Positions 9,057 to 57,685 of a DNA stretch of 64,000 bases are shown here, in pieces. Position 1 is the first letter of the stretch, and each line of letters opens with the position of its first letter. The notes beneath the pieces are model-generated. The model was not told where the DNA came from, searched no databases, and saw nothing but the letters and a program-made list of their open reading frames with translations. The position numbers were made by a program, and so were the translations under genes. Origin of the DNA: Pseudoduganella violaceinigra DSM 15887 (GTDB lineage Bacteria; Pseudomonadota; Gammaproteobacteria; Burkholderiales; Burkholderiaceae_D); the NCBI RefSeq assembly GCF_000425385.1, contig NZ_AUDI01000004.1:186001-250000 (forward strand). The letters run 5' to 3'.

Positions 9057-9168
9057 GTACAAACTTGGCAAAAAACTTCAGTATATTAATAGGGCAACTC
9101 GCCAGGAAATACTTTCCCAAGCATAACGACGTGCAACTTCACCCCGCGCACGATTGCAGCAGTGCAAC

Positions 9169-9223
9169 GTCGGGGTCAGGTCTGTCATTTGGACACGCAG
9201 CGCGCACCTTTGATATTTCTCAA
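9169..9223 (+). repeat. Left terminal repeat of RAYT element 1
   Basis: 55 bp beginning GTCGGGGTCAGGTCTG and ending TTTGATATTTCTCAA; inverted relative to 10166-10220. Confidence 0.9.
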
Positions 9224-9232
9224 CACGCTGAC

Positions 9233-10072
9233 TTATTTTTCTTCGAAAGCTTTAACTGCCCGGCTGACGGTTTTTACGGAAACACGGGCAAATTGGGCGA
9301 TCTCCGGCATGGAATAGGCCAGCGAGCGATAAGCGTGTGCCATGGCCACTTTAGGATCGTGGAATTCGGCGAAGTAGTCCTGCAAAGGCCGTGAAATTGC
9401 CCGTCGCTGGGATCGCTTGACTTCCGCCAAATTGCCATCGCACTGACTTCCCACAACGCGCGCGCAGAACGCTTCGTCTCCCAGTATGAGCTGATGGGTC
9501 ATGGCGCGCAGCGGACTTGGCATATCAATGCCTGCAATTACAAATTCTCCGTAAGCCTGCCTGGCCTGGTGTTGATCGCTATCGAAGCAGGCAAGCAGCT
9601 GATCCGACTTGAGCCATTCCTGGCCGTCGACCATGCCCATGGCGGCGCCGTGGCTGCTCCACAGCCAATGGGACGGCAAGGCAACCATTCTCGCCCGCAC
9701 CGGATTGAGTTCAATATAGCGCGCCAGCTCTTTCAAGTAGAGGTCGCTTTGGCAAAGAATGGCGGTGAAGCGGCCCTGGAACAGATGCCCGACCAGGCGG
9801 TGCTGGCGGTTGAAATACTGCGAATAGCTTCCATTCAAATGGCGCATGCCGCGCGAGAGCTGGCCGTCAAAGGTCTCAAGCAGGATATGGAAGTGATTGG
9901 TCATCTGGCAATAGGCAAGCACCGAGAAATTGAAGCGGGCGCAGGTCTCGCCCAAGAGCGCAAGCCAGGTCATGCGGTCGCTATCGGACAGATAGATGCG
10001 ACCCTTCCTGTTGCCGCGCACTGTGATGTGGAAGAGGGCGCGGTCAAGGCGGATTCGGAGTGGACGGTTCAT
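9233..10072 (-). CDS. REP-associated tyrosine transposase (RAYT, Y1_Tnp family)
   Basis: A 279-residue transposase-like protein of the single-strand DNA HUH/Y1 class (IS200-related). Visible motifs are the histidine pair in MTNHFHILLE and the tyrosine-bearing helix YSQYFNRQHRLVGHLFQGRF, both diagnostic for RAYTs. The C-terminus carries a helix-turn-helix-like segment (MPEIAQFARVSVKTVSRAVK), giving it a possible DNA-binding tail. RAYTs are thought to mobilise short REP hairpins rather than themselves; the 55-bp repeats on both sides fit that role. I start at 10072 (MNRPLRIR), where homologues begin, instead of the ATG at 10135. It has a relative at 56742-57593 with different flanking ends. Confidence 0.9.
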   Translation of the reverse strand: MNRPLRIRLDRALFHITVRGNRKGRIYLSDSDRMTWLALLGETCARFNFSVLAYCQMTNHFHILLETFDGQLSRGMRHLNGSYSQYFNRQHRLVGHLFQGRFTAILCQSDLYLKELARYIELNPVRARMVALPSHWLWSSHGAAMGMVDGQEWLKSDQLLACFDSDQHQARQAYGEFVIAGIDMPSPLRAMTHQLILGDEAFCARVVGSQCDGNLAEVKRSQRRAISRPLQDYFAEFHDPKVAMAHAYRSLAYSMPEIAQFARVSVKTVSRAVKAFEEK

Positions 10073-10133
10073 GGGAAAAGCATAGGCAGCTTTCCCCCAA
10101 GCAGGATTGCGATGGCGCAATGAAAATGAAAAC

Positions 10134-10162
10134 ACCCGTCAGACATCAAATTCGTGACGGGT
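10134..10162. repeat. Inverted repeat beside RAYT element 1 right end
   Basis: ACCCGTCA (10134-10141) and TGACGGGT (10155-10162) form a perfect 8-bp stem with a 13-nt loop, between the RAYT start and the right terminal repeat. Confidence 0.6.
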
Positions 10163-10165
10163 ATA

Positions 10166-10220
10166 TTGAGAAATATCAAAGGTCGGCTGTCGCTGTCCAA
10201 ATGACAGACCTGACCCCGAC
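10166..10220 (-). repeat. Right terminal repeat of RAYT element 1
   Basis: Inverted partner of 9169-9223; on the minus strand it starts GTCGGGGTCAGGTCTG and ends TTTGATATTTCTCAA. Confidence 0.9.
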
Positions 10221-10222
10221 TT

Positions 10223-12307
10223 TTATTTTAGTTGTTTGAGCAGGAAGGCGTAGGTCAGGGCCCACATCTGGGCTTGCTGGTCGTTGTTGGCGGCGCCGGC
10301 GTGGCCACCTTCGGTGTTTTCCCAGTACAGCACGTCGTGGCCTTGCTCTTTCATGCGGGCGACCATCTTGCGCGCGTGGCCGGGGTGGACCCGGTCGTCG
10401 CGCGTCGAGGTCGTGAACAGGACCCGCGGGTAGTGCTTGTCTTTGAAGACGTTCTGGTACGGCGAGTATTTGCTGAGGTAGGCCCATTGCTTGGGATCGT
10501 CCGGGTCGCCGTATTCGCCCATCCACGAGGCGCCGGCCAGCAGTTTGCTGTAGCGCTGCATGTCGAGCAGTGGGACTTGGCAGACCACGGCGTTGAACAG
10601 GTCCGGGCGCTGCGTCAGCGCGGCGCCGACCAGCAGTCCGCCATTGCTGCCACCCATGATGCCAAGGTGGCGCGGGCTGGTGATCTTGCGCCGGATGAGG
10701 TCCTGGGCAACGGCGATGAAGTCGTCGAAGGCGCGCTGCCGGTTTTCCTTCAGGGCGGCCTGGTGCCAGCGCGGGCCGAATTCGCCGCCGCCGCGGATGT
10801 TGGCGAGCACGTAGACGCCGCCTTGCTTGAGCCACGCTTCGCCCGTGGTGCCGCTGTAGAAGGGCTTCATCGATACTTCAAAGCCGCCGTAGCCGTACAT
10901 GACGGTGGGATTCTTGCCGTCCAGCCGGGCGTTTTTATCCATCAGGACGAAGTAGGGGACTCGGGTGCCGTCTTTCGATTCGGCCATATGCTGTTGCACG
11001 GTGTAGGGCTGGGCGTCGAAGTAGGCGGGCAGCGCTTTGAGCGGGCTGCGTTCGTCCTTGCCGCTGTCGGCCAGGTACATCGTGGTCGGGTTGAGGAAGT
11101 CCGTCACCGTCAGGAAGTATTGCTCCGATTCGACGGGGTCGAGCGCTTGCACTTCCAGCGTGCCGAAGGCGGGGGCGTTGACGTCGCGGCGCTGCCATTT
11201 GCCGTCCACGTGGCGCAGTTCAACCAGGCGGTTCTTGACCTTGTCGAGGATGTTGAGCAGGAGGGCGCTGCGGGTGGCGGCGACGCCGTCGAGCGAGCTC
11301 TCTGGCGTCGGCGTGAACAGGATGTCGAAGTTGCGTTCGCCGGCCATGAAGGCCTTGAAGTCGACGGCGAGCAGGGCGCCTTGCGGGTAGGTGGCGCCGG
11401 TGACGGTCCAGTCCGAGCGCAGGTCGATGATCAGCTGGTCGCGCAGCGTGTAGGCGTTGGCGTCGTCCGGTTTCGCAATCCTGGTGAGTTGGTCGCCTTC
11501 GCGTACGAAGAGTTCGCTGGAGTAGAAGCCGATCTGGCGCGAAATGAACTGGTGGCTGTGGCCCGGCGTGAAGTCCTTGTAGGCGCCGACGCCCAGGTCG
11601 TCGCTCTTGGCTTGGTACAGGGTTTTGGCGGCCGCCAGCGGCGTGCCGCGCTTCCATTCCTTGACGATGCGCGGATAGCCGGAGGTGGTCATGCTGTCGG
11701 GGCCGAAGTCGGTGGAGACGAAGACGGTGTCGGCGTCGATCCAGGCGATGTCGCTTTTGGCTTCCGGGAGAGTGAAGCCGTCGGTGACGAAGCGGCGCTT
11801 GGCGACATCGTATTCGCGCACGACGTGGGCGTCGCCGCCGCCGCGCGAGAGCTGCACCAGGCATTGCTCGCCTTTCGGGTAGAGGCAGGATACGCCATGC
11901 CATACCCAGTTTTCATTCTCGTCGGCGGCCAGCTTGTCGATGTCGAGCACCGTTTCCCATTGCGGTGCGGCCTTGCGGTATTGCTCCAGCGTGGTGCGGC
12001 GCCAGATGCCGCGCGTGTGCTGGGCGTCGCGCCAGAAGTTGTAGTAATGGTCGCCGTGGCGGGTGACGTAGGGAATGCGCTCTTTGGAGTTGAGGATGGT
12101 CTTCAGGCGTTCGTGGATGGCGGGGTAGTTTGGCTGCGCCTGCAATTCGCGCAGGGCGGCGGCGTTTTGTTCCTTGACCCAGGACAGGGCCTTGTCGCCG
12201 CCCACGTCTTCCAGCCAGAGGTAGGGATCGCTGTCCTGCGCATAGGCGCCGCCTGTCGCCGCCAGTCCCAACACCATGCCTGAAGCCATCTTCCGATACG
12301 AGCGCAT
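10223..12307 (-). CDS. Exported prolyl oligopeptidase family (S9A) serine peptidase
   Basis: A 694-residue peptidase with an N-terminal signal peptide (cut near GGAYA/QD), so it acts outside the cytoplasm, probably in the periplasm. After the signal come the DPYLWLEDV stretch that opens the S9A beta-propeller domain, the propeller to about residue 420, and the alpha/beta-hydrolase domain with catalytic Ser in GGSNGG (about 553), Asp in TRDDRVHPG (about 636) and His in TEGGHAG (about 671). All three triad residues are present, so it should cleave peptides after proline or a related residue. The start has GAGGAG at good spacing. The RAYT repeat ends 2 bp beyond its stop codon. It may follow the ypfJ-like gene in one transcript (36-bp gap). 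Confidence 0.92.
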   Translation of the reverse strand: MRSYRKMASGMVLGLAATGGAYAQDSDPYLWLEDVGGDKALSWVKEQNAAALRELQAQPNYPAIHERLKTILNSKERIPYVTRHGDHYYNFWRDAQHTRGIWRRTTLEQYRKAAPQWETVLDIDKLAADENENWVWHGVSCLYPKGEQCLVQLSRGGGDAHVVREYDVAKRRFVTDGFTLPEAKSDIAWIDADTVFVSTDFGPDSMTTSGYPRIVKEWKRGTPLAAAKTLYQAKSDDLGVGAYKDFTPGHSHQFISRQIGFYSSELFVREGDQLTRIAKPDDANAYTLRDQLIIDLRSDWTVTGATYPQGALLAVDFKAFMAGERNFDILFTPTPESSLDGVAATRSALLLNILDKVKNRLVELRHVDGKWQRRDVNAPAFGTLEVQALDPVESEQYFLTVTDFLNPTTMYLADSGKDERSPLKALPAYFDAQPYTVQQHMAESKDGTRVPYFVLMDKNARLDGKNPTVMYGYGGFEVSMKPFYSGTTGEAWLKQGGVYVLANIRGGGEFGPRWHQAALKENRQRAFDDFIAVAQDLIRRKITSPRHLGIMGGSNGGLLVGAALTQRPDLFNAVVCQVPLLDMQRYSKLLAGASWMGEYGDPDDPKQWAYLSKYSPYQNVFKDKHYPRVLFTTSTRDDRVHPGHARKMVARMKEQGHDVLYWENTEGGHAGAANNDQQAQMWALTYAFLLKQLK

Positions 12308-45805: not shown

Positions 45806-46666
45806 ATGGAATTGTCCTCGCTGCGGATCTTCAAGACGGTGGCCGAAGAAGGCAGCGTGACCCAGGCCGCCGTGCGCCTTAACCGCGTGCAGTCAAACGT
45901 CTCGGCGCGCCTGAACCAGCTGGAAGAATCGCTGGGCGTGACGCTCTTCAACCGATCCGGGCGGCGCATGCTGATCACGGCCGAAGGCACGCGCTTGCTG
46001 GCATATGCCGACCGCCTGCTGCGGCTGGCCGACGAAGCGCAAATGTCGGTGCGCGGGGACCAGCAACCATCGGGGCCGCTGCGCATCGGCTCGATGGAAA
46101 CCACCGCGGCGGCGCGGCTGCCGCGCTTGCTGGGCGCCTTCCACCGCAGCTACCCGCAGGTCGACCTGCTGCTCGACACCGGCCCGACCGACTATCTGGT
46201 GCAGCAGGTACTGAACCACAAAGTCGACCTGGCGCTGGTATCGGCCCCGATCGAACGCCCCGAGCTGGCGCAGGTGCCCGTATTTGTGGAAGAACTGGTG
46301 CTCTTGACCGATGCGATGCACGGCCCGGTCAGCGGCCCGGCCGACGTGGCGCGCCGCACCCTGCTTGGCTTCCGCAGCGGCTGTTCATACCGGCGCCGCC
46401 TGGAATGGTGGTTTGCCGATGCCGGCATCGCGCACACGAAGGTCGCCGAGTTCGGCACATTTGAAGCCATCATCGGCTGCGTGGCCGCAGGCATGGGCGT
46501 GGCGATGATGCCGCGCGAAGTACTGAAACAGCGCAACCTTGGCCGCACGGTGCGATGTCACACCCTGCCGCCCGAGGTAGCGGAAGTGGAAACGATGCTG
46601 ATCTGGCGCCGCGACATCCCCCACCACCCCGCCCGCGACGCCTTCGCCGCCAGTTTCTCCCAATAA
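45806..46666 (+). CDS. LysR-family transcriptional regulator
   Basis: A 286-residue regulator. The N-terminal winged helix-turn-helix is clear (LSSLRIFKTVAEEGSVTQAA and VRLNRVQSNVSARLNQLEES), and the effector domain starts GPLRIGSMETTAAARLP. It most likely senses a small molecule and controls the divergent MFS/tautomerase pair. A GGAG site upstream supports ATG 45806; longer readings would cross the control region. The REPIN-like element begins right after its stop codon. Confidence 0.93.
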   Translation: MELSSLRIFKTVAEEGSVTQAAVRLNRVQSNVSARLNQLEESLGVTLFNRSGRRMLITAEGTRLLAYADRLLRLADEAQMSVRGDQQPSGPLRIGSMETTAAARLPRLLGAFHRSYPQVDLLLDTGPTDYLVQQVLNHKVDLALVSAPIERPELAQVPVFVEELVLLTDAMHGPVSGPADVARRTLLGFRSGCSYRRRLEWWFADAGIAHTKVAEFGTFEAIIGCVAAGMGVAMMPREVLKQRNLGRTVRCHTLPPEVAEVETMLIWRRDIPHHPARDAFAASFSQ

Positions 46667-46670
46667 GAAC

Positions 46671-46831
46671 GTCGGGGTCGAACGTCGGGGTCAGGTCTGT
46701 CATTTGGACACCCGCGCAAGGTCTTTGATATTTCTCAATACGCGAAATCGTGCGATTTTGCGTATTGAGATTGATCAAACTAAGTGACTGCGTGTCCAAA
46801 TGACAGACCTGACCCCGACTTTGACCCCGAC
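46671..46831. repeat. Extra GTCGGGGTC end copies around the REPIN-like element
   Basis: Outside the 136-bp element one more GTCGGGGTC lies on the left (46671-46679) and one more GACCCCGAC on the right (46823-46831), so each end motif is duplicated at about 12-13-bp spacing. Confidence 0.8.
46684..46819. mobile_element. REPIN-like non-autonomous element matching RAYT element 1
   Basis: Two inverted 55-bp halves (46684-46738 and 46765-46819) match the terminal repeats of RAYT element 1 in their outer 27-28 bp and most of their inner 15 bp. The 26-bp centre is itself a near-perfect palindrome (TACGCGAAATCG / CGATTTTGCGTA). No gene lies inside, so it fits a two-REP unit (REPIN) mobilised in trans by the RAYT at 9233-10072. 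It starts 17 bp after the LysR stop codon. Confidence 0.85.
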
Positions 46832-46842
46832 TTTTAATAAGA

Positions 46843-46868
46843 AAAAAGCCCGCGGCGGCGGGCTTTTT
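46843..46868. terminator. Bidirectional intrinsic terminator between lysR and icd
   Basis: AAAAAGCCCGC and GCGGGCTTTTT form a perfect 11-bp stem with a 4-nt loop. T-runs on both strands let it end both the convergent lysR and icd transcripts. Confidence 0.9.
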
Positions 46869-46888: not shown

Positions 46889-49117
46889 TTACAGGGTTGC
46901 CAGGGCTGCGTTGAAGGTGGCGCTTGGGCGCATCACGGCTGCGGTCTTCGCTGCGTCAGGCTTGTAGTAGCCGCCGATGTCCATGGCAGCGCCTTGCACC
47001 GAGTTCAGCTCTGCCACAATCTTCGCTTCGTTTTCGCTCAGCGATTTGGCCAGCGGTGCGAACTTGGCTTTCAGCTCCGCGTCTTCGTTCTGCGCTGCCA
47101 GGGCTTGGGCCCAGTACATCGACAGGTAGAAGTGGCTGCCGCGGTTGTCCAGCTCGCCGGTGCGGGTCGATGGCGATTTGTTGTTGTCCAACAGCTTGCC
47201 GGTGGCTTCGTCCAGGGTCTTGGCCAGGATCTTGGCTTTGGCGTTGCCCGACTTGATGCCCAGTTCTTCGAACGATACGGCCAGCGCCAGGAATTCACCC
47301 AGCGAGTCCCAGCGCAGGTGGTTTTCTTCCACCAGCTGCTTGACGTGCTTCGGTGCCGAGCCGCCGGCGCCCGTTTCGTACATGCCGCCGCCCGCCATCA
47401 GCGGAACGATCGACAGCATCTTGGCCGAGGTGCCCAGTTCCAGGATCGGGAACAGGTCGGTCAAGTAGTCGCGCAGGATGTTGCCGGTCACCGAGATGGT
47501 GTCCAGGCCGCGCGAGACGCGTTCCAGGGTGTAGCGCATGGCGCGCGTCTGCGACATGATCTGGATGTCCAGGCCCGAGGTGTCGTGCTCCTTCAGGTAG
47601 ACCTGGACCTTCTTGATCACTTCCGCTTCGTGCGGACGGTAGGTGTCCAGCCAGAACACGGCCGGCATGCCGGAGTTGCGGGCGCGGGTGACGGCCAGCT
47701 TGACCCAGTCGCGGATCGGGGCGTCCTTCACCTGGCACATGCGCCAGATGTCGCCTTCTTCCACGTTCTGGGTCAGCAGCACTTCGCCGGTGGCCAGGTC
47801 GGTGATGTTGGCGATGCCGCCTTCCGGTACTTCGAAGGTCTTGTCGTGCGAGCCGTATTCTTCGGCTTGCTGCGCCATCAGGCCCACGTTTGGCACGGTG
47901 CCCATGGTCTTCGGATCGAAGTTGCCATGCCATTTGCAGAAGTTGATCATCTCCTGGTAAATGCGGGCGAAGGTCGATTCCGGCATGACCGCCTTGACGT
48001 CGGCGGTGCGGCCGTCGGCGCCCCACATCTTGCCGCCGATGCGGATCATGGCCGGCATCGACGCGTCGACGATCACGTCGTTCGGCGAGTGGAAGTTGGT
48101 GATGCCTTTGGCCGAGTCGACCATGGCCAGCTTCGGACGGTGCTCCAGGCAGGCGTGAAGGTCTTTCAGGATTTCTTCCTTCTGCGACGCTGGCAGCTTT
48201 TCGATCTTCTCATACAGGTTGACCATGCCGTTGTTGACGTTCACGCCCAGTTCGTCGAACAGCTTGGCGTGCTTCTCGAACGCTTGCTTGTAGAAGATGC
48301 GCACGCAGTGGCCGAATACGATCGGGTGCGATACCTTCATCATGGTGGCTTTGACGTGCAGCGAGAACATCACGCCGGTTTTGTAGGCGTCGTCGATTTC
48401 GCGTTCGTAAAATTCCAGCAGGGCTTTCTTCGACATGAACATCGAGTCGATGATTTCGCCGGCCTGCAGTGCGACTTTCGGTTTCAGGACGATGGTCTTG
48501 CCGGATTTGGTCAGCAGTTCCATCTTCACTTCACGCGCCTTGTCCAGGGTCATGGACTTTTCGCCGTGGTAGAAGTCGCCGCCGTGCATATGCGACACGT
48601 GGGTGCGCGATGCCTGGCTCCATTCGCCCATCGAGTGCGGGTTCTTGCGTGCGAATTCCTTGACTGCCTTCGGTGCGCGGCGGTCGGAGTTGCCTTCGCG
48701 CAGAACAGGGTTGACGGCGGAGCCGATGCACTTGCCGTAGCGGGCTTTCAGTGCCTTGTCTTCCTCGGTCTTGGCGTCTTCCGGGTAGTCCGGCAGCTTG
48801 TAGCCGGCCGCTTGCAGTTCGCGGATGCAGGCGATCAGCTGGGCGACGGATGCCGAAATATTCGGCAGCTTGATGATGTTGGTGTCGGCGTGCTGGGTCA
48901 GGGCGCCCAGTTCGGCCAGGTTGTCCGGCACTTTCTGCGCATCGGTCAGGTATTCCGGGAAAGCTGCCAGCACGCGGGCGGCGACGGAAATGTCGCTGGT
49001 GACGACGTCAACGCCGGCCGGCGCTGCGAACTTCTGCACGATAGGCAGCAGGGAATAGGTCGCCAGCAGTGGCGCTTCGTCGGTCAGGGTGTAGATGATT
49101 TTGGACTTTTGAGTCAT
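46889..49117 (-). CDS. icd: NADP-dependent isocitrate dehydrogenase, monomeric type
   Basis: A 742-residue single-chain isocitrate dehydrogenase (IDH-II type), close to the usual ~740 residues. It converts isocitrate to 2-oxoglutarate and CO2 in the citric acid cycle, making NADPH. The sequence matches the family along its length, for example [46 protein letters not shown] and [14 protein letters not shown]. It is a different family from the dimeric enzyme encoded by icd in E. coli. A single-gene unit: a 131-bp gap follows the upstream gene and a strong terminator lies 20 bp after its stop. Confidence 0.96.
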
Positions 49118-54512: not shown

Positions 54513-56732
54513 ATGGATAAAGACCAGCATGCCAGGCAGGCGGCGCAGGCGACCGTCATCCGGCCCGCCGTCTCTGGACTGGCAGGCATCGATTCCCTCT
54601 TGCCTGGCGATGCGATGCTGGCAGCCATGGGCGGGACGCCCCCCACGGTGTACGCCAGCATGCAGCGTGCCGACGGCGCCCTGCAATTGGCGAGCGACCA
54701 GGACTATTTCAACGATCTTTACCTGCTGGCGCCGGTCGGCTATTTCGTCCTCGCCGGCGATACCACGATCCTGCAGATGAATCTGGTGGGCGCCGATCTG
54801 CTTGGCCTGCCGCGCGATAATCCCGACGGTATCGGTTTCCGCCAGTTCATCGCGCAGCGCTTCACGGCGGACTTCGACGCCTTCGTCAGCAACAGCCTGT
54901 CCACGGAAGAGCCGCAGCGCATGGCGCTGCAAATGACGCGCGGCCGGGGCGACCGCGGCTTCGCTGTCACCCTGCTCGGCAGCGGCACGCCGGGGGCCTC
55001 GCAGCTGCGCGTGGTGCTGGAAATGGCGGAAGGCAAGCTGGCCGCGCTGGAAAAAAGCGAAGAGCGCTTCCGCCGCATCGTGCACAGTGCGGAAGAGGGG
55101 ATCTGGGAAATCGACGCCGCCGCGCGTACCAGCTTCGTCAATCCCAAGATGGCCGCCATGCTTGGCTATACCATCGAAGCCATGCTGGAACAGCCCCTCG
55201 TCGCGTTCATGGACGACGAGGGCCGCTCCCTGCTCGAGCGCAATATCGCGCGCCGCCAGCAAGGCATGGCCGAACGCCACGAGTTCAAATTCCTGCGCAA
55301 GGATGGCAGCGAGATGTGGGCCACCCTGGCCACCAATCCCATCTTCGATGCCGACGGCAGCTATCTGGGCGCGCTGGCGCTGGTCAGCGATATCACCGAG
55401 CGCAAGCTGTCGTCCGAGCTGATCTGGCACCAGGCCAATTATGACGCCCTCACGGCGCTGCCGAACCGCAATATGTTCCAGGACCGGCTGGCGCAGGAAA
55501 TGAAGAAGGCCCGGCGCGACGGGCTCTTCCTGGCGCTGCTGTTCATCGACCTCGACCAGTTCAAGGAAATCAACGACCGCCTCGGGCACGAGATGGGTGA
55601 TGCGCTGCTGGTGGAAGCGGCGCGCCGCATCGCCGCCTGCGTGCGCGCCTCCGACACCCTGGCGCGGCTGGGCGGCGATGAATTCGTGGTGATCCTGCCC
55701 GGCCTCGACCAGGTCAGCAATGCCGAGCGCGTCGCCCAGCAGATCATTGCCGCCCTGAACCGGCCGTTCCTGCTGGGCGAGAGCAGCGGCTCGGTGTCGG
55801 CCAGCATCGGCATCGCCCTGCACCCGTCGGACGCCAACGACCCCGAGCAATTGCTGCGCAACGCCGACCAGGCCATGTACGCCGCCAAGAATGCCGGCCG
55901 CAACCGCTACAGCTACTTCACGCCCGATATGCAGGCCGCCGCCCAGCTGAGGCTGCGCATTACGCACGACCTACAAATGGCGGTAAGCAACCAGCAGTTC
56001 GAGCTGCACTACCAACCCATCGTCAACCTGCACACGGGCGCCATCGAACGCGCCGAAGCGCTGCTGCGCTGGCGCCACCCCGAGCGCGGCATGCTCAACC
56101 CGGCCGAGTTCATCGGCAGCGCCGAAGCCAGCGGCGTCATCCTGGAAATCGGCGACTGGGTGTTCCGCCACGCCGCCGACCAGGCCAAGCGCTGGCAGGA
56201 AGAGCTGGGGCGCCCCTTCCAGATCAGCGTCAACCAGTCGCCGGTGCAATTCCGCCTGGGCCAGGAATTTTTTGAAGAATGGATGCGCTACGTTGAGCGC
56301 TTGGGACTGGCGCCGCGCAGCATTGTCATCGAAATCACGGAACGCCTGCTGCTTGACGAAAGCGGGCCCGTGATGGAGCGCCTGCGCCAGTTCCGGTCTA
56401 TGGGCCTGCAGGTCGCGCTGGACGACTTCGGCACCGGCCACTCGGTGCTGGCCCACCTGAAGAAATTCGACATCGATTATTTGAAGATCGACCGCAGCTT
56501 CGTGATGGACCTGGCCGGCGACTCCGGCGACCTGGCGCTGTGCGAAGGCATCATCGTGATGGCGCACAAGCTGGGCCTGAAAGTGGTTGCCGAAGGGGTG
56601 GAAACGGAAACCCAGCTGAACCTGCTGAAAGCGGCCGGCTGCGACTACGCCCAAGGCTACGTTTACGCCCACCCCATGCCCCCCGCCCAGATGGGCGCCA
56701 TGGCCCGCGGCCCCGCCAAACTGGCAAACTGA
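54513..56732 (+). CDS. PAS-GGDEF-EAL cyclic-di-GMP turnover protein
   Basis: A 739-residue cytosolic protein. Two PAS regions (about 65-170 and 185-295, the second with RRIVHSAEEGIWEIDAA) precede a GGDEF domain (motif at 387-391, LGGDEFVV) and an EAL domain (EALLRW at 515). Catalytic segments of both are intact: ITERLLL, DDFGTGHSVL and KIDRSFV in EAL. It could make or break c-di-GMP depending on the PAS signal. It ends right at the outer repeat of RAYT element 2, whose first base is the last base of the stop codon. Confidence 0.93.
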   Translation: MDKDQHARQAAQATVIRPAVSGLAGIDSLLPGDAMLAAMGGTPPTVYASMQRADGALQLASDQDYFNDLYLLAPVGYFVLAGDTTILQMNLVGADLLGLPRDNPDGIGFRQFIAQRFTADFDAFVSNSLSTEEPQRMALQMTRGRGDRGFAVTLLGSGTPGASQLRVVLEMAEGKLAALEKSEERFRRIVHSAEEGIWEIDAAARTSFVNPKMAAMLGYTIEAMLEQPLVAFMDDEGRSLLERNIARRQQGMAERHEFKFLRKDGSEMWATLATNPIFDADGSYLGALALVSDITERKLSSELIWHQANYDALTALPNRNMFQDRLAQEMKKARRDGLFLALLFIDLDQFKEINDRLGHEMGDALLVEAARRIAACVRASDTLARLGGDEFVVILPGLDQVSNAERVAQQIIAALNRPFLLGESSGSVSASIGIALHPSDANDPEQLLRNADQAMYAAKNAGRNRYSYFTPDMQAAAQLRLRITHDLQMAVSNQQFELHYQPIVNLHTGAIERAEALLRWRHPERGMLNPAEFIGSAEASGVILEIGDWVFRHAADQAKRWQEELGRPFQISVNQSPVQFRLGQEFFEEWMRYVERLGLAPRSIVIEITERLLLDESGPVMERLRQFRSMGLQVALDDFGTGHSVLAHLKKFDIDYLKIDRSFVMDLAGDSGDLALCEGIIVMAHKLGLKVVAEGVETETQLNLLKAAGCDYAQGYVYAHPMPPAQMGAMARGPAKLAN

Positions 56733-57685
56733 AAGCCGTGGTCAGCTCTGGCAATCGGACATGTTGCGGTAGGCCTGCAGCGCACGGCTGACCGTGCGCA
56801 CGGAAACCTGGCAGAATTGCGCGATTTCCGCCATCGTGTAGGTGTGCGACAGATAGGCCTGCGCCATGGCCTGTTTCCGGTCCGGCTGCTCGAAGTATTC
56901 GGCTAAAGGCCGCACGATGGCCCGCCGCAAGATGCGTTTGATTTCCAGGGGATTGCCTGGAATTGGGCGGCGCCCGGCCTGCCGGCAGAACTCATCGTCG
57001 CCGAAAAACAGCTGGTTGCGCACGGCGCGGAAGGGATTTTCCTGCCCGATGCCCTCCAGGACAAAGACTTCAAAGGCCGCGGTCGCTGTGGCGCGGTCGC
57101 TGCCGAAATGCGCCAGCACGGCGTCGCGGGCCAGCCATGCCGGCGCGTCGAGTGTGCCGACCAGGGCGCCGTAGCTGCTCCACAGCCAATGGGCTGGATG
57201 GGTGGTCATGCCTGCGCGCACGGGGTTTAGCACGGCGTAGCGCGTCAGCTCCATCAGGTACTCGTCTTCCTGGCACAGGACGGCGTGATAGCGGCCCTGG
57301 AAGACATGCCCCACCAAGCCGTGCTGGCGGTTGAAGTACTGCGAGTAATTGCCGTTCAGGTAGCGCATGCCGCGCGACAGCTGGCCCTGCCGCGTCCGCA
57401 CCACGAGGTGGTAGTGGTTGCCCATCTGGCAGTAAGCTTGCACGGCAAAATCGAAGCGTTCGCAACTTTCGCCGAGCAAGTCCAGCCACGTCAGGCGGTC
57501 GCTATCGGTGCGGAAAATGGTGCAGCGCCGGTCGCCGCGCGACGTCACGTGGTAGCAGGCGTTGTCGTGTTCGATGCGGAGAGGTCTGCTCATGGGCCGA
57601 GTGTAGGCCCGGCCAGGGGGAAGGGCTTTGCGCCCGCGCAAGAGATGGCCAGAAATGGCGGATTGCCAGAGCTGCCCCCGGCTTT
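56732..57685. mobile_element. RAYT element 2 with ~31-bp imperfect inverted repeats
   Basis: A 954-bp unit bounded by 56732-56762 and, inverted, 57655-57685; 27 of 31 positions match, including AGCTCTGGCAATC. The ends are unrelated to those of RAYT element 1. The left repeat covers the last codons of the transposase gene. The unit fills the whole space between the GGDEF-EAL stop and the end of the flagellar gene cluster. Confidence 0.75.
56742..57593 (-). CDS. REP-associated tyrosine transposase (RAYT), second copy
   Basis: A 283-residue relative of the RAYT at 9233-10072. Motifs: QMGNHYHLVV for the metal-binding histidines and YSQYFNRQHGLVGHVFQGRY around the catalytic helix. It also ends in a helix-turn-helix-like segment (MAEIAQFCQVSVRTVSRALQ). 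The two proteins share the fold and many segments but differ throughout, and their flanking repeats differ too, so they probably handle different REP families. Start 57593 (MSRPLRIEHDN) is set by homology; an ATG at 57641 is also open. Confidence 0.9.
   Translation of the reverse strand: MSRPLRIEHDNACYHVTSRGDRRCTIFRTDSDRLTWLDLLGESCERFDFAVQAYCQMGNHYHLVVRTRQGQLSRGMRYLNGNYSQYFNRQHGLVGHVFQGRYHAVLCQEDEYLMELTRYAVLNPVRAGMTTHPAHWLWSSYGALVGTLDAPAWLARDAVLAHFGSDRATATAAFEVFVLEGIGQENPFRAVRNQLFFGDDEFCRQAGRRPIPGNPLEIKRILRRAIVRPLAEYFEQPDRKQAMAQAYLSHTYTMAEIAQFCQVSVRTVSRALQAYRNMSDCQS

Follow-up and report, generated by a model that had tools for sequence, protein, structure and literature searches.

Among the systems in which a Y1 transposase is tied to repeated sequences, the TIRYT/TIRtron arrangement, in which long inverted ends containing GGGGWSAS flank the transposase gene and recur elsewhere singly or as dimers, comes closest to the locus studied here (Di Nocera et al., 2013, PMC3733652, in its accessible text). 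TnpA-Y1 subclass 2.1, corresponding to Bertels group 1, is characterized by the motifs NH[YF]H and YIELNP, and the accessible part of the study that describes it reports that no REP-like sequences were found near its genes (Quentin et al., 2018, PMC6006769). How domesticated transposases of the RAYT type spread repeats is presented as an open question in the text available to us of PMC8266576. Our analysis of a window of 64 kb (the whole stretch of 64,000 nucleotides analysed here) points to the dimer at positions 46684..46819 as a RAYT-linked element of the TIRtron type that is very probably mobile and non-autonomous. With a probability of about 0.82, it is a mini-element whose two halves are transposon ends in inverted orientation, which would be recognised and spread in trans by RAYT-A, an HUH/Y1 transposase with the same ends. 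The dimer shares its ends with the RAYT, is present in many copies, co-occurs with the RAYT across genomes and has ends that follow the RAYT of each host.

The dimer, which belongs to a family that we call A, is 136 bp long, has no assigned strand and measures 130 nt from its first GGGG to its last CCCC. Its left outer core, TCGGGGTCAGGTCTGTCATTTGGACA (46685..46710, + strand), and the inverted copy on the right (46793..46818, - strand) both match the ends of RAYT-A. Further inward are two dyad boxes of the form TTGA-N6-TCAA, TTGATATTTCTCAA on the left (46725..46738, + strand) and TTGATCAATCTCAA on the right (46765..46778, - strand), which enclose a central palindrome of 26 bp (46739..46764, no assigned strand). 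The inverted arms, 46681-46750 and 46753-46822, are 70 nt each and 80% complementary, and the single strand folds as one long hairpin (z-scores against shuffles of -16.2 as RNA and -14.1 as DNA). The 28 nt of GTCGGGGTCAGGTCTGTCATTTGGACAC are identical in both halves and in the left RAYT-A end, the right RAYT-A end sharing the first 27, and the 13-mer GGGGTCAGGTCTG has exactly four occurrences in the window, one at each end of RAYT-A and one at each end of the dimer. The initial annotation had described two inverted halves with outer blocks identical to the ends of the RAYT at 9233-10072, enclosing a palindrome and no gene; the outer 27-28 bp bear out the first point, the palindrome exists but is imperfect, and we saw no credible gene inside, the open reading frames listed across the unit being mechanical.

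The RAYT-A unit, itself a TIRtron (9166..10224, - strand), consists of the gene with the matching core and box at both ends, its end blocks starting at 9169 and 10220. The protein (TIRYT; 9233..10072, - strand) has 279 aa, a Y1_Tnp domain (E 3.7e-11), the motifs NHFH and YIELNP (within MTNHFHILLE and ARYIELNPVRA) and an HTH-like C-terminal tail. This tail aligns across homologues and scores under the 24.6-bit cut-off of HTH_23 in both RAYT-A (15.1 bits) and its paralogue RAYT-B (23.6 bits); a phmmer search against solved structures gave no match at E≤0.01. The RAYT-B unit lies in the same window (56732..57684, - strand), with a gene at 56742-57593 that is 57% identical to RAYT-A and with box-less ends of about 26 bp that resemble a second dimer family, B. 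At what appears by eye to be the orthologous place, genome G144 carries another RAYT (L094) that shares 58% identity with RAYT-B and has a box at just one of its ends.

A genome-wide search for the end motif in inverted pairs, proposed in the initial annotation as a check, did reveal many further copies. The 16-mer GTCGGGGTCAGGTCTG has 51 matches with at most one mismatch in 6.11 Mb, against one for the reversed control, and 30 regions read together with the window unit gave 17 dimers, besides single halves. Twelve of these, including the window unit, are of the 136-bp class and five share its outer core and measure 165-166 bp (134 and 163-164 bp, respectively, when the outermost base pair is left out). 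Halves of the 136-bp class, of which 24 were compared, have an almost constant outer 26 bp, followed by about 13 variable bases and then by TTTGATNNNNNTCAATACG. A sequence model, R1, built from 41 own-genome halves, matches 41 places in this genome at E≤1.1e-15, which are its own members and are thus recovered by construction, and 29 weaker ones at E≤0.007, several of which represent the shorter family B, with the core GGCAATCGGACA and 62-63 nt from GGGG to CCCC in four paired units. Two wider inverted pairs were also seen. One (L062 304-2773; G000:C10:172144-174617) has two family A halves 2.5 kb apart around genes that look by eye like an AraC-like regulator, an alpha/beta-hydrolase and a glyoxalase, and is possibly a cargo unit, or simply two single halves; the other (L049 304-2902; G000:C10:134309-136913) is a 2.6-kb pair with family B-like ends.

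The partnership with RAYT-A extends across the genus. R1 is found at E≤1e-6 in 27 of 74 same-genus genomes, a set that includes strains named Duganella, Rugamonas and Massilia. The match is strong (best E≤1.2e-14) in 17, with 2 to 56 half-units each, and weak only in the other 10; the strong set alone was read. In a sample of 392 genomes of the family, R1 occurs at E≤1e-9 in 13, all of the same genus. RAYT-A homologues are present at E≤1e-60 in 45 of the 74 genomes, and 15 of the 17 strong genomes have a RAYT with matching ends, 14 of them with a perfect box at at least one end and G195 with a degenerate box at one end and no box at the 5' end. Copies in genomes lacking the RAYT had been named at the outset as evidence that would speak against the partnership. 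Two strong genomes do lack a matching RAYT at E≤1e-60, G161 having none at all and G206 only a family B type, and they carry the fewest half-units (2 and 6, versus 11-56 in the other 15). Co-occurrence in the 74 genomes is nonetheless pronounced (15 with both, 2 with dimers only, 0 with RAYT only, 57 with neither; Fisher 7e-14), the RAYT-only cell referring to the RAYT ends that were read rather than to all RAYTs of the 45 genomes with matches. Together with the further copies, this supports the earlier proposal that made the dimer a non-autonomous partner of RAYT-A.

The dimer ends also follow the RAYT of each host. The mean distance between the core of a half-unit and that of its host RAYT is 0.63, versus 2.11 after permutation, and none of 5000 permutations was as low (164 halves). 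The host's own RAYT is the best or tied match for 129 of the 164 halves and the RAYT ends of another genome are closer for 35; the G144 halves that lie nearer to foreign ends have cores resembling, by eye, the second RAYT of G144. In G181, the core GGTGCCAGG marks the RAYT ends as well as most of the dimers sampled, and RAYT ends and dimers likewise share the variants GGGGTCAGCTCTGACATTC in G188 and GGTGTCAGG in G148 and G164. Of 88 dimers, sampled with four units of family B and two duplicated loci removed, 58, from 13 genomes, have a GGGG-to-CCCC length of exactly 130 nt and the others one of 89 to 191, in a sample that is biased to R1's own 130-nt class since the relatives' elements were the best-scoring listed R1 matches. 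Four of the 58 are identical copies in G203 (L159-L162) whose long flanks are shared too; these are thus part of a larger repeat and give no sign of dimer movement, and L164 is the sole near-copy in that genome with different outer flanks.

The TTGA-N6-TCAA box is perfect in 159 of 170 distinct halves from the 17 genomes, at exactly the same place in 153, and also stands at a fixed distance from the core at the RAYT ends; no box was seen in the family B dimers read, nor at RAYT-B, which has a closely similar HTH-like tail. It has a polarity at the RAYT gene: position 5 is G at 11 of 14 5' ends (G195, with no box there, being dropped) and T at 13 of 15 3' ends, such that the inward reading tends to TTGAG-N4-ATCAA at the 5' end and to TTGAT-N4-CTCAA at the 3' end (p 1.5e-4 for position 5 and 0.0025 for position 10, over 14 and 15 ends with degenerate boxes included). 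The sense strand therefore tends toward TTGAG-N4-ATCAA at both ends, although the cores are inverted. RAYT-A of the window's own genome does not have this polarity; both its ends read TTGAT..CTCAA, the 5' end being the exception. The 136-bp class is mostly of the 3' type in both halves, with T at position 5 in 91 of 115 perfect boxes and C at position 10 in 86, and the longer class is mixed (19 T to 20 G at position 5, 27 C to 15 A at position 10), as expected if the long dimers derive from a left and a right end. A role of the box as a longer hairpin is unsupported, since the two inner position pairs lack pairing covariation (39 paired versus 54.4 expected, and 45 versus 45.3); it may still form a 4-bp mini-hairpin, whose bases hardly vary. 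The recognition helix of the HTH-like tail, considered as a cause of the box, is nearly the same in RAYTs with and without it and hence does not explain it. We infer that the box is part of strand-specific end recognition by RAYT-A, in which it would contribute to the choice of strand.

The ends of the dimer carry a second regularity. The outermost motif, GTCGGGGTC, had been noted as doubled at both ends, and it indeed lies within exact tandem duplications, of GAACGTCGGGGTC on the left (46667..46692, + strand; copies at 46667-46679 and 46680-46692) and of the 12-bp right end (46810..46833, - strand; copies at 46810-46821 and 46822-46833). Such duplications span 15 of 170 ends versus 0 of 3400 shuffled-flank controls, in a test that counted only runs including the core's first G and would miss breakpoints outside the core. 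In 14 of the 15, the unit is 12-14 bp long and terminates behind GGGGTC or GGGGTCA, one base beyond, or behind the equivalent GGTGCC, and the copied units include locus-specific bases (GAAC at the window dimer, TAC or CAAAAC elsewhere). A looser scan allowing one mismatch found a partial core just outside 23 of 86 dimers, at both ends in 6, against a background of 43 in 787 windows. Two origins had been offered for the doubling, nested insertion and the copying mechanism; the locus-specific bases and the fixed end of the copied unit disfavour simple nested insertion and lead us to prefer duplication in place, with which the copying mechanism agrees better. At the window dimer itself nested insertion may still have contributed: in two relatives, L181 and L182, the dimer end has the very sequence formed by the right outer copy and its flank here (TGACCCCGACTTTTAAT). 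A breakpoint so constant points to nicking at a specific site, and RAYT-A would accordingly be predicted to nick single strands next to the GGGGTC(A) of the outer core. The TnpA-REP enzymes studied are reported to cut at CT, and that of Marinomonas also at CA (PMC8266576, in the text available); the predicted GGGGTC^A is compatible with these specificities.

Two alternative readings take the element, or its box, as a regulatory device of the host. The window dimer lies between a LysR-type regulator gene with its stop at 46666 and an isocitrate dehydrogenase-like gene with its 3' end at 46889 (both named from their translations), and of the 17 own-genome dimers, 14 have called neighbours, from an approximate codon-usage script. 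Eight of these stand between two gene 3' ends, two between two 5' ends and four in mixed settings, with 20 of the 28 neighbours pointing their 3' end at the element. This distribution, the strong hairpin with its conserved AAA before and thus TTT after it, and the strict 130-nt length (albeit in a sample biased to that class) would suit bidirectional terminators held by selection at convergent gene ends, with mobility long past. We find this unlikely, as the dimer ends follow the RAYT ends, the near-copy L164 in G203 has different flanks, and a simple terminator scan missed the dimer and called a separate hairpin at 46843-46868. This terminator-like hairpin adjoins the dimer and was seen by eye in G195 and not in four family B relatives. 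Under the mini-element reading that we favour, the dimer's position mainly at gene 3' ends would reflect tolerance of insertion there, and its hairpin may still aid the end of transcription. The other alternative concerns the box only, is compatible with the mini-element reading, and would make the dyad a site for a host Crp/Fnr-type regulator and the element a mobile oxygen-responsive operator. The FNR consensus, TTGATNNNNATCAA, has TTGA-N6-TCAA as its core, and the genome encodes an FNR-like protein (L338) with the N-terminal cysteine cluster that is the hallmark of FNR; the unpaired inner positions of the box, which leave a longer hairpin unsupported, and the 6 of 14 dimers faced by at least one neighbour's 5' end also accord with an operator. 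The full consensus is nevertheless present in only 22 of the 159 perfect boxes and not in the window dimer, both of whose boxes end in CTCAA. The predominance of neighbouring 3' ends and the polarity of the box with respect to the RAYT gene also tell against this reading, which we regard as even less probable than the terminator one. Literature on MITEs and FNR, judged by title and abstract start, contained nothing on such an element.

A third alternative bears on the history of the sites. Comparison of the dimer loci among strains, also suggested in the initial annotation, showed that related genomes often have a different element at the same site. At the window site, we retrieved the LysR flank of 29 relatives, and the six readable across both flanks have a family B type dimer (G159, G181, G206 and G184), a third, box-less dimer type (G144) or a box dimer (G195), a pattern that indicates replacement of one element by another. 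With eight further own-genome sites, for which 45 relative loci were read (40 fetched and 5 earlier, one candidate and paralogous matches being left out), this makes 51 site-by-genome cases: by reading, 9 hold box dimers, 17 hold dimers of that core family that lack the box (one being a bare core palindrome), 6 hold members of another palindromic family (GGGGACG type), 3 hold remnants only and 16 hold nothing recognisable, some of which may be rearranged places, as the eight extra sites were located by one flank. At site L004, the box dimer of the host, the box-less ones of G206 and G181 and the half-core plus GGGGACG type of G159 each start at the apparent stop codon of the left gene; at L016, the box (host), box-less (G206) and GGGGACG-type (G159) elements all adjoin TTTAATCCGG. 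A family-blind inverted-repeat test was positive at 24 of the 45 relative loci versus 0 of 22 control loci (Fisher 5e-6), the controls being four other convergent gaps, short or overlapping (-21 to 31 bp) and not gap-matched, with a fifth (c2) giving no match. The GGGGACG-type dimers at shared sites are L282, L287, L288, L302, L304 and L309, of which L287 lies inside apparent outer remnants of the core family (AAAGCCGGGG/CCCCGGCTTT). One site with a full dimer in the window's genome has in G181 (L303) no more than a 30-bp core palindrome, AAAGTCGGGGTCAGACCTGACCCCGACTTT, possibly an excision scar. The loci compared yielded neither a clean empty site nor a target duplication; at L001, the search met intergenic DNA that had diverged and no clear-cut junction. 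Recurrent insertion into permissive gaps, with no exchange involved, would account for the 16 cases with nothing recognisable and for the many sites that are convergent gaps, and we give it somewhat less than an even chance: the control gaps, short and unmatched as they are, hold no dimer, and at several sites different families meet the same boundary. More tentatively, RAYT/TIRYT ends could act as docking sites, where a transposase would nick resident elements at one set position of the common outer core (GGGGTC^A) and the interior between the two nicks would be exchanged between families, such that over evolution a gene-end site keeps its frame and swaps its occupant; the 12-14 bp duplications would then be footprints of nicks and the directional box would mark the active strand.

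The mini-element reading places the dimer among described systems as follows. Judging from its sequence, it is most likely a TIR dimer of the TIRYT/TIRtron kind and not a strict REPIN. Its earlier label, REPIN-like, holds insofar as it pairs two palindromic units in inverted orientation and the genome encodes a matching RAYT, and fails for a GTAG-type REPIN, since the halves mostly begin with AAA[GT][TC]CGGGGTC and carry neither GTAG nor GTGG at their outer ends. Nor is it a CGTC-tagged REP, with CGTC at one end and no linked transposase: here a transposase is linked, and ACGTC precedes GGGG in only 2 of 41 halves, the left end of the window dimer and one RAYT end. Searches of the openly licensed literature found no paper describing family A, and those for GGGGTCAGGTCTG as a string and for REP in Oxalobacteraceae returned only unrelated work. 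The family ties an enzyme of the subclass 2.1 type to repeats in 15 genomes of one genus, with ends that follow the enzyme and a sharp predicted nick point, and its site-by-site histories offer ground for testing the exchange idea.

Pairs of RAYT and repeat are already known, and what is new here is the directional dyad box, the apparent same-site swapping and the end duplications with a fixed breakpoint. As in the TIRYT/TIRtron description (Di Nocera et al., 2013), we find a RAYT-like gene, long GGGGWSAS ends (as GGGGTCAG at both RAYT-A ends) and their recurrence as dimers and single halves; these new features and the strict 136-bp class do not appear in the accessible text of that description. 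RAYT-A resembles TnpA-Y1 subclass 2.1 in its key motifs, both present, and probably in its C-terminal extension, whose tail looks HTH-like, and is longer (279 aa versus a median of 238 in the table of that study); unlike the subclass 2.1 genes described in the part available, it has ends that recur as a family of 17 dimers (Quentin et al., 2018). Like REPINs (Bertels and Rainey, 2011, PMC3116915, in the available text), the dimer is an extragenic, transposase-linked inverted pair of palindromic units that would be spread in trans. It differs from them in having no GTAG/GTGG foot, in its greater length and in its internal box. Classic REPINs also reach higher copy numbers than family A dimers. 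Finally, the REP orthoswitch, in which orthologous RAYTs of related strains have different end classes (Nunvar et al., 2013, PMC3686654, as far as its accessible text goes), has a similar counterpart here, except that in this genus the swap would also occur at orthologous sites of the dimers themselves.
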